From NCBI GenBank assembly GCA_947179325.1, contig CAMXAU010000001.1:62001-126000 (forward strand): a stretch of 64,000 nucleotides of DNA, in the 5' to 3' direction. The notes below the pieces were generated by a model, which saw only the letters and a program-made list of their open reading frames with translations, did no database searches and was not told where the DNA came from. Source of the stretch: an uncultured Bacteroidales bacterium. GTDB taxonomy: Bacteria > Bacteroidota > Bacteroidia > Bacteroidales > UBA932. Both the position numbers and the translations under genes were made by a program. This document shows, one piece after another, positions 18,753 through 46,576 of this stretch; position 1 is the first letter of the stretch, and each line of letters starts with the position of its first letter.

Positions 18753-20843
18753 ATGGCCAAGATATATGATGTAATAGTAGTCGGTGGAGGTCACGCCGGA
18801 TGCGAGGCAGCCATGGCTGCTGCAAATATGGGGTCCTCTGTGCTTCTTGTCACAATGGACATGGGGCGTTTTGCACAGATGTCATGTAATCCTGCAATCG
18901 GCGGGATAGCGAAGGGGCAGATTGTCCGGGAGATTGATGCGCTGGGCGGATATACCGGAATCGTTACTGATGCCTCTACTCTCCAGTTCAGGATGCTGAA
19001 CCGCTCGAAAGGGCCGGCAATGTGGAGTCCGCGTGCACAATGCGATAAAATGCACTTTTCGCTAAATTGGCGTAAAATCATCGAAAGTAATTGTAAATTA
19101 GATATTTACCAAGATTCTGTCACTTCTTTTCTCTTTGAGAATTCAAAAATTGCGGGGGTGAGTACAACTACCGGGGCAAAATTCAATTCTCAGACAGTTG
19201 TCCTGACTGCAGGAACCTTCCTGAATGGCAAACTTTTCATAGGAAGGAATTCTTTCGAGGGAGGGAGGATCGGCGAGTTGTCTTCTTACGGCTTGACAGG
19301 GCAGCTTGCGGACATGGGGGTCCGGACTGCCAGGATGAAGACCGGTACTCCTCCGAGAATCGATATATCTTCGGTTGACACTTCTTCTCTTCCTGTCCAG
19401 ACAGGTGATGAGGCGCCTGAGAAATTTTCATATCTCCCATTCCTCTCAACGGCCCAGAACGGTACACCTCAGAAGCCATGCTATATTGTGCACACGAATT
19501 CAGAGGTCCATGATATACTGCGTTCCGGATTTTCGGAGTCGCCTCTTTTCACTGGAATGATTACTGGTATAGGTCCTCGCTATTGTCCGAGCATCGAGGA
19601 TAAGCTGCGGACTTTTGCGGACAAGGACTCTCATCAGCTTTTCCTTGAGCCGGAGGGTAGGGGGAACAATGAGTATTATCTCCAGGGGTTCTCTTCGTCT
19701 CTTCCATTGCAGGTCCAGCTTGATGCGCTGCATGCTATAAAAGGACTTGAATATGTCAAGATCTTCCGTCCTGCCTATGCAGTCGAATATGACTATTTTG
19801 ATCCGACGCAACTTGAACCGACTCTTGAGATGAAGACTATTCCTGGTCTATTCATGGCCGGCCAGGTTAATGGTACGACAGGGTATGAAGAGGCTGCGGC
19901 GCAGGGGCTGATGGCGGGAATCAACGCTCATCTGAAGTCGCATGGGCAGCCTGGTTTTGTCCTGAAGAGGGATGAAGCTTATATAGGTGTCCTTATCGAT
20001 GACCTCATCACTAAGGGGGTTGATGAGCCGTATAGGATGTTTACTTCGCGGGCTGAATATCGTATTCTTTTGCGGCAGGATAATGCCGATCTAAGATTGA
20101 CTCCACTCTCTTATGAACTTGGGCTTGCCGATAAGTTCAGGTATGATTATACCATGAGGAAATATGATTCTGTTTCCAGGTTGAATGATTTTGCTTCCGG
20201 GGTATCTTTGAAGCCGGAGCAGGTAAACAATTATCTTGCTGAAGTAGGGACTGCGACTACGGATTGCCGTAAGAGGATTGATGATCTTGTTTCTCGTCCT
20301 CAAGTTTCGATGTCTGGAATTTTGAATATAGTTCCACGTGGAACATTTGAGAAAAACAAATTTGATATTGAGTCTGTTTTCTGCAATCCTATAGCAGACT
20401 TGAATCTTAATTCAGATGGATATTATGGCTTGATTTCTTCGGTAGCAGATTCTGGTCCTCTTGATTCGGGAATATGTACTTCCTATAATAATGCAGTGCG
20501 CGTATTGAAAGGTAATACAGATTATCCTGTGGCGATGCTTGATGCGGAGAAAATGGGCTCAACTGTTAAGTCAAACTATAAACGGGAAATTGTGGAGTTG
20601 TCTGAAATCTATATAAAGTATAGAGGATATATAGACAGGGAACAGAAAATGGCTGACAAGATAATGAGACTTGAGAAATTGACTATTCCTGCGGGTTTTG
20701 ATTTTGATAGGGTGGAGAGTCTTTCTATCGAATGCCGTCAAAAGCTTAAGAGGTATTCTCCAAAGACTATTGCCCAGGCTTCGCGTATTTCCGGTGTGTC
20801 TCCTGCGGATATTTCTGTCCTGCTTGTCTATTTTGGACGATAG
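18753..20843 (+). CDS. mnmG: tRNA uridine-5-carboxymethylaminomethyl(34) synthesis enzyme MnmG (GidA)
   Basis: [81 protein letters not shown]. Confidence 0.97.
20330..20345. promoter_or_regulatory. parS-like site inside mnmG (AGTTCCACGTGGAACA)
   Basis: 14-bp perfect palindrome GTTCCACGTGGAAC at 20331-20344; matches the known chromosomal ParB-binding parS core. Confidence 0.7.
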
Positions 20844-20868: not shown

Positions 20869-20908
20869 AAAAAAAGAAAGTGTTCCACGTGGAACACTTT
20901 CTTTTTTT
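20869..20908. terminator. bidirectional terminator-like 40-bp perfect palindrome between convergent mnmG and ruvA
   Basis: AAAAAAAGAAAGTGTTCCACGTGGAACACTTTCTTTTTTT; A-tract and T-tract flank the stem, so it reads as a hairpin plus U-tract on both strands. Confidence 0.7.
20881..20896. promoter_or_regulatory. parS-like site (TGTTCCACGTGGAACA), perfect 16-bp palindrome between mnmG and ruvA
   Basis: Exact palindrome in the convergent mnmG/ruvA intergenic space, nested in a 40-bp perfect palindrome. Confidence 0.75.
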
Positions 20909-20912
20909 TGTT

Positions 20913-21500
20913 TTAAAGTCTTTTCAGGCTCAATTTTATTATTTCTTCCAGGCTTGCCTGAGGCTTTTCTTTGATTACAGCCGCTACTGCCTTGTTTACA
21001 TTTGTCTTTGTGAATCCAAGGAGTACAAGGGCGGTTGTCGCTTCCTCTATTGCTCCATTGTCCTGTTGGCTGAATATTGCGGCAGTGTCTGAACCTCCGC
21101 CTTTGACGACTTTGTCCTTTAGCTCGAGAATCAGTCTTTGCGCACTTTTCATACCGATTCCTTTTATGCTTTTAATCCGGTTTATGTCTTCTGCTATGAT
21201 TGCGTTCCTGATTTCGTCCGAGGTGAGGGAGGAGAGCATCATTCTTGCTGTGGAGGCTCCTATTCCGGATACTCCGATAAGCAGCCTGAAGAGTTCTCGC
21301 TCGTCTTTTGAGGCAAAGCCGTAATACAGTTCTTCGTCTTCGCGAAGATAATGGTGGATGTAGATTGTCTCTTCTGACTTGCCTTCCAGCATGGAGAATG
21401 TCTGCAGGGATATGAGGATTTTATATCCTATTCCGTGGCATTCTACCACCGCGTCGGTCGGTGTCAGCTCTACTATGGAACCTTTGATGTACTCTATCAT
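20913..21500 (-). CDS. ruvA: Holliday junction branch migration protein RuvA
   Basis: MIEYIKGSIVELTPTDAVVECHGIGYKILIS; HhH motifs LLIGVSGIGASTARMML and IKGIGMKSAQRLILELKDKV. Confidence 0.96.
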   Translation of the reverse strand: MIEYIKGSIVELTPTDAVVECHGIGYKILISLQTFSMLEGKSEETIYIHHYLREDEELYYGFASKDERELFRLLIGVSGIGASTARMMLSSLTSDEIRNAIIAEDINRIKSIKGIGMKSAQRLILELKDKVVKGGGSDTAAIFSQQDNGAIEEATTALVLLGFTKTNVNKAVAAVIKEKPQASLEEIIKLSLKRL

Positions 21501-23742: not shown

Positions 23743-24272
23743 TGTCCGGTGATATGTCTTCTTCATCTGTATCCGATGTGGAAATAGAGGTTTATCTGTC
23801 TTTGGGGAGCGACATCGGGGACAGGGATGCCAATCTTAGGGGTGCCCTTGATGCTCTTGATGAGGCTTTCGGGGTGCATAGTGACCTTGTTTCAAGGTTC
23901 TATGAGACTGAGCCGTGGGGATTTGAAAGTGATACGCAGTTCCTGAATGCAGCGGTTAAATATATCCTTGCTGTTCCACGGGGAACAGACCCGGCCGGTT
24001 TCGTAAGATGGATACTGGGGATATGCAAGGGGATAGAGTCTTCCATGGGACGGACAGGAAAGCCTGAATATGACAGCAGTGGAAACAGGATATACAGGTC
24101 GCGTATCATAGACATCGACATTCTGATGGCCGGAGCTTTCCTGATTGATGAGCCGGACCTTAAGGTGCCGCATCCGCTTATGGCGCAGCGTGATTTCGTG
24201 ATGATTCCGCTGATGGACATTGCATCCCCTGAAATAAAGGGGATTTTTCCGTGGATATTCGATGCAAAGTGA
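23742..24272 (+). CDS. folK: 2-amino-4-hydroxy-6-hydroxymethyldihydropteridine diphosphokinase
   Basis: EVYLSLGSDIGDRDANLRGALDAL, SRFYETEPWGF, RSRIIDIDILM, VPHPLMAQRDFVMIPL. Confidence 0.93.
   Translation: MSGDMSSSSVSDVEIEVYLSLGSDIGDRDANLRGALDALDEAFGVHSDLVSRFYETEPWGFESDTQFLNAAVKYILAVPRGTDPAGFVRWILGICKGIESSMGRTGKPEYDSSGNRIYRSRIIDIDILMAGAFLIDEPDLKVPHPLMAQRDFVMIPLMDIASPEIKGIFPWIFDAK
23972..23987. promoter_or_regulatory. degenerate parS-like site inside folK (TGTTCCACGGGGAACA)
   Basis: One mismatch (T to G) to TGTTCCACGTGGAACA. Confidence 0.45.
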
Positions 24273-25903: not shown

Positions 25904-25940
25904 AATGAAAGGATGGCACAGGCCATCCTTTCATTATTTT
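25904..25940. terminator. terminator between convergent glyS and GH115 genes
   Basis: AATGAAAGGATGGC-acag-GCCATCCTTTCATT (14-bp perfect stem) followed by T-rich sequence. Confidence 0.75.
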
Positions 25941-46530: not shown

Positions 46531-46576
46531 TTACGCAAAGACGGGTGCCGAAATTTCGGCACCCGTCTTTGCGTAA
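46531..46576. repeat. 46-bp perfect palindrome 20 nt downstream of the GH2 stop
   Basis: TTACGCAAAGACGGGTGCCGAAA/TTTCGGCACCCGTCTTTGCGTAA read directly; possible terminator or mRNA-end hairpin without a clear T-tract. Confidence 0.8.

Follow-up and report, generated by a model that had tools for sequence, protein, structure and literature searches.

A perfect 40-bp palindrome at positions 20869-20908 of the window, the 64,000-nucleotide stretch of DNA analysed here, very probably carries two selected layers, a predicted parS site at its centre and a two-way terminator serving the genes mnmG and ruvA on either side. The palindrome, AAAAAAAGAAAGTGTTCCACGTGGAACACTTTCTTTTTTT, was recognised by inspection of the sequence and has 20 nt per arm and no spacer. 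It is housed in a gap of 69 bp between mnmG (gidA; 18753-20843, plus strand; TIGR00136, E = 8e-234) and ruvA (20913-21500, minus strand, stop at 20913; TIGR00084, E = 6.5e-59), both of which converge on it. Direct reading of the sequence bore out the earlier note, which had described this perfect palindrome between the two convergent genes and its parS-like centre. The central 16-mer, TGTTCCACGTGGAACA (20881-20896), was identified by motif match. As the parS 14-mer supplies 7 nt per arm and each added symmetric base has a probability of ~0.3, the 13 further bases present place the arm extension beyond chance. The left arm, AAAAAAAGAAAG (20869-20880), is the predicted U-tract of the minus-strand (ruvA) transcript, and the right arm with one additional T, CTTTCTTTTTTTT (20897-20909), is that of the plus-strand (mnmG) transcript, as judged by the sequence and the polarity of the arms. 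Neither the palindrome nor its parts are assigned a strand.

The core at 20881-20896 differs from the classical parS, TGTTTCACGTGAAACA, at two of 16 positions, both being changes to the C/G form of parS, and the 14-mer within TGTTCCACGTGGAACA is an exact match to the parS palindrome GTTYCACGTGRAAC. Three sites with at most three mismatches to parS were found in the window, as compared with 0.26 expected from shuffles. The 3.13-Mb assembly (69 contigs) includes two exact copies of GTTYCACGTGRAAC and one copy that differs at a single base; the three share a contig and lie within 3.7 kb. The exact copies are that in the gap, at 20881, which alone is armed, and a second, AGTTCCACGTGGAACA (20330-20345, no strand assigned), inside mnmG, which has no extended arms and served as an internal control. 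The single-mismatch site lies inside folK (23972-23987, likewise without strand). The cumulative GC-skew minimum was located at ~75-80 kb of contig C1, of which 166 kb were examined, and the parS sites are at 82-86 kb. The dnaA gene is on a different contig, and the clustering of a few copies near the origin is thus seen at the contig level only; Hi-C of gut bacteria has placed parS clusters at the origin, where dnaA need not be found (PMC10197239).

The genome encodes one parAB pair, consisting of parB (TIGR00180, E = 5e-54) and an adjoining ORF for a ParA-type ATPase on contig C16. Alignment of this ParB with solved structures revealed GK-x-R and -VGH-, corresponding to R173 and G201 in Caulobacter numbering, whereas Noc has Q and R; the positions that discriminate ParB from Noc are described in PMC7383237. 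The segment at 20881-20896 is a predicted chromosomal ParB-loading site. Near-parS sequences were also observed in relatives (described below), with one mismatch in 53 of 54 sites; one group carries them in folK, at about residue 75, and others have them in sufS, at about residue 342. The folK and mnmG sites of the window both encode VPRGT, which can be read either as a weak ParB site or as a common peptide.

RNA from either strand of the palindrome is predicted to form an 18-bp stem with a 4-nt loop (z -5.0 for the plus and -7.0 for the minus strand), and none of 200 shuffles was equally stable. The end of the hairpin reads TTTCTTTTTTTT on one strand and TTTCTTTTTTT on the opposite strand, giving the arrangement of a bidirectional terminator, in which two converging genes end at a stable hairpin that has a U-tract behind it on either strand. 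In a scan of the 17 kb from 13 to 30 kb, the palindrome ranked first of 15 terminator-like sites; the number of sites overall was no higher than in shuffles, so the scan alone proves little. The transcripts of mnmG and ruvA would both end at the palindrome.

Comparison of the mnmG-ruvA gap in related genomes, which the earlier note had set as a test beforehand, gave a fixed core with covarying stem arms, and a core varying by compensatory change was not seen among these relatives. The set comprised 80 named relatives, making 81 loci with the window, the closest by RuvA being Bacteroidales MAGs and Ca. Cryptobacteroides species. The genome belongs to the Bacteroidales, near Ca. Cryptobacteroides. 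The gene order hflX-tonB-mnmG> <ruvA-sufS-sufE-sufT-folK-glyS was kept in nearly all of the 80 with long enough contigs. A parS-like site, defined by at most one mismatch in the 14-mer, was present in the gap of 70 of the 81 loci, 59 of them with the exact 14-mer. After removal of one duplicate, 33 elements were perfect palindromes with arms of at least 13 nt (13-25), whereas chance extension from the 14-mer to an arm of 13 would be found at about 1 in 1000 sites.

Half-positions 1-7 of these long-armed elements, which make up the parS 14-mer GTTCCACGTGGAAC, were identical in 33/33, with no both-sided changes. At half-positions 8-22, at least 78 both-sided changes that left the arms complementary were counted on a protein tree (RuvA, MnmG, SufS, GlyS and HflX), and 57 of the 78 lie beyond half-positions 8-13, where selection by arm length of at least 13 builds in perfect pairing. 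A pair counter gave 93% paired cells, as compared with 77% in shuffles, and 79 both-sided changes as compared with 20, with none of 500 shuffles as high; every slid register scored much lower than the true arm pairing. The arms changed in concert, and one-sided intermediates were almost absent from the 33 elements. Termination on two strands would disfavour one-sided changes, because what is a G-U pair in the transcript of one strand becomes an A-C mismatch in that of the opposite strand.

The 9 nt following the G+C core of the 33 elements contain a mean of 6.6 T for one strand and 6.8 T for the opposite strand, with poor U-tracts in some arms (L047 and L106, 4 T in 9). Among the 33, 17 have a palindrome that extends into the mnmG or ruvA stop codon, and in three it extends into both. 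In these three (L036, L046 and L051), the stop codons of both converging genes are inside the palindrome, and the stem thus pairs one stop with the other. Purines predominate in the left arm of every one of the 33 elements, and the arm pairs consist of 242 A-T, 71 G-C, 34 T-A and 7 C-G. Given that a U-tract on both transcripts demands such polarity, and that a cruciform or a mutational artefact has none, the arms look terminator-like and not merely palindromic.

Long stem-loops with an A-rich left and a T-rich right arm are a common style in the lineage, seen after tonB, hflX and glyS in loci L035-L114. These neighbouring hairpins have cores unrelated to that of the mnmG-ruvA element, and none of the 79 terminator-like hairpins after tonB, hflX and glyS contains parS. 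Stems were perfect in 0/31 cases after tonB, 11/24 after hflX and 8/24 after glyS versus 28/32 after mnmG, a difference that would follow from a need for the mnmG-ruvA element to act on both strands. Perfect palindromic stem-loops free of parS were found in these genomes too (35 inverted repeats over 952 kb), and the window includes a parS-free inverted repeat at 25904-25935, in the convergent glyS gap. It also includes a perfect 46-bp palindrome with 23-bp arms and no parS at 46531-46576, 20 bp past the end of an ORF, which folds at -42 kcal/mol and in which a clear T-tract is absent.

The two parts of the element were also found separately. The mnmG-internal parS is shared by this genome and 75 of the 80 relatives (76 sites), mostly with flanks that are not symmetric, and the gap parS is bare (arms of 7-8) in several clades, amounting to many relatives. 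Conversely, the L044 gap retains a polar stem, GAAAGGAG...CTCCTTTC, from which parS was lost, and the exact 14-mer is still found inside mnmG in this locus. Hence, neither part needs the other.

These observations bear on two simpler accounts of the element. That it is a plain bidirectional intrinsic terminator, in which the parS likeness of the core is due to coincidence or common descent, is highly improbable. Perfect palindromes without parS do occur in the same genomes, including those at 25904-25935 and 46531-46576. However, the core of the mnmG-ruvA element is invariant across species while the arms turn over, the hairpins after the three neighbouring genes lack parS, bare parS persists where the arms are missing, and the only exact parS-type sites of the genome are here, beside the skew minimum. 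A coincidental likeness was rejected on the fixed core, the clustering of the sites and the persistence of bare sites. The opposite account, a plain parS with functionless arms that arose by template switching around a short palindrome (quasi-palindrome correction), is unlikely. It would fit the concerted arm changes with almost no one-sided intermediates, as well as the long parS palindromes that occasionally occur in non-convergent places, but mutation has no reason to place A on the left, and the polarity is strong in the mnmG-ruvA gap (242 A-T versus 34 T-A) and weak in sites elsewhere (37 versus 25; Fisher p = 1e-6). Further, the polarity matches that of the ordinary terminators nearby, and the polar stem of L044 survives the loss of parS. 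The missing one-sided changes had been considered as proof of template switching, and this argument was dropped; long-arm selection and two-strand termination explain them equally well.

The earlier note had also assigned a purpose to the arrangement, namely that termination spares the centromere from read-through transcription. Protection of the ParB-loading site from elongating RNA polymerase would be an addition to the two-layer reading and not an alternative to it, and is unlikely. The placement between convergent genes is in keeping with such a role, as are published reports of lowered expression near parS sites (reviewed in PMC7022226). However, the sister parS inside mnmG must be transcribed, both here and in the 75 relatives that share it, bare sites in the gap are frequent, and ParB condensates were seen to coexist with RNA polymerase in single-molecule work in vitro (PMC10681803). 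Thus, the shielding purpose is unsupported, whereas the other part of that reading, parS nested in a two-way terminator, is supported by the fixed core and the compensatory, polar arms. There is next to no likelihood that the palindrome is a repeated or mobile element (REP/BIME-like) or an uptake sequence. Its inverted-repeat form between convergent genes resembles inverted uptake sequences (PMC1590033), but there are only two exact cores genome-wide, both at mnmG and one of them armed, and the position is conserved across species. The candidate was rejected by copy number, the many copies of such an element not being found in the assembly.

Beyond the closer relatives, sampling of the order gave the parS motif in 126 of 148 genomes, and sampling of the phylum in 112 of 119. 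In the loci from these wider samples (L115-L144 and L151-L177), which come from other families and classes, mnmG lies at most 3 kb from parS in 51 of 57, in most cases with parS immediately next to the 5' or 3' end of the gene; the linkage of parS and mnmG appears to be phylum-wide. Several of the genomes have two parS sites ~1.9 kb apart, which would bracket mnmG. Arms of at least 13 were found in 2/16 convergent gaps, 5/55 co-directional gaps and 3/58 ORF sites, where gene context in other families is rough, being taken from simple six-frame ORF calls. Long parS palindromes in non-convergent positions (8 of 113 sites elsewhere in the phylum) are less frequent and have weak polarity. Perfect palindromes with arms of 15-25 surround parS between co-directional genes in other Bacteroidota (L165, L140, L118, L141 and L163), and that of L165 has a T/A core, GTTTCACGTGAAAC. 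Palindromes around parS may tend to grow in general, a tendency that this lineage would have put to use as a terminator, and part of the arm extension may reflect the way palindromes mutate and not any selection for termination.

Taking together the sequence pattern, its conservation, the polarity of the arms and the presence of ParA and ParB, the two-layer reading would work as follows. ParB would load near the replication origin on the inner 14-16 bp, the chromosomal parS. The same inner palindrome, when transcribed from either side, would form the G+C-rich part of an RNA hairpin, and the outer arms, A/G-rich on the left and T/C-rich on the right of each strand, would give a U-tract after the hairpin on both strands, such that the mnmG and ruvA transcripts could both be ended by one element. 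The core would be fixed by ParB recognition, and the arms would need only complementarity and purine-to-pyrimidine polarity. Of the two parts, parS probably came first, and the arms would be a later outgrowth from it. What the arrangement chiefly offers is probably a saving of sequence where the gap is only a few tens of bases long, and not shielding of the centromere; we infer this with reserve, as long gaps also hold some of the long-armed elements (L042, L081 and L083). A tentative extension is that ParB occupancy of the core alters termination of mnmG and ruvA, or the reverse, which would link the state of segregation to expression on the origin side. Alongside this, palindromes seeded by parS might grow and stay perfect by template switching at the DNA level and then be shaped by selection into a terminator.

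The element offers a natural case in which a short palindrome would be read both as a double-stranded, predicted ParB-loading site and as a transcribed terminator hairpin, and comparative data separate the two constraints base by base. The armed, bare and stem-only variants among species form a ready set with which to ask if transcription close to a bacterial centromere is of consequence. Caution is advisable with terminator-like palindromes in the vicinity of mnmG in Bacteroidota, as they may be centromere sites.

Like chromosomal parS of ParABS systems, the site described here is a 14-16-bp palindrome, GTTCCACGTGGAAC, present in few, clustered copies near the skew minimum of a genome with parAB, but here one copy lies at the centre of a longer, perfectly palindromic element that has the features of a terminator. 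The bidirectional intrinsic terminators that lie between convergent genes and have paired A- and T-tracts (PMC1590033) share with it the G+C-rich stem, the 4-nt loop, the A-tract before and T-tract after the stem on both strands, and the position adjoining both stops. The stem core here is a fixed, predicted protein-binding site, whereas ordinary terminators in the same genomes have unrelated cores. The inverted uptake sequences of Haemophilus and Pasteurella that form stem-loops (PMC1590033) similarly reuse a fixed recognition motif as a hairpin, but occur in hundreds of copies and are not ParB sites, in contrast to the single origin-region element seen here. The intergenic parS3 and parS4 of Pseudomonas aeruginosa, at ParB-repressed promoters (PMC5521831), also place parS in a gene-regulatory position; ParB acts at promoters in that case, whereas here the parS DNA itself encodes a hairpin at gene ends. 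No earlier description of a parS nested in a terminator was found in the open-access literature searched, most subscription journals being outside it. Whereas parS and the two-way terminator are each of a known kind, a nesting of the two, with constraints that are separable base by base, was not encountered in that literature.
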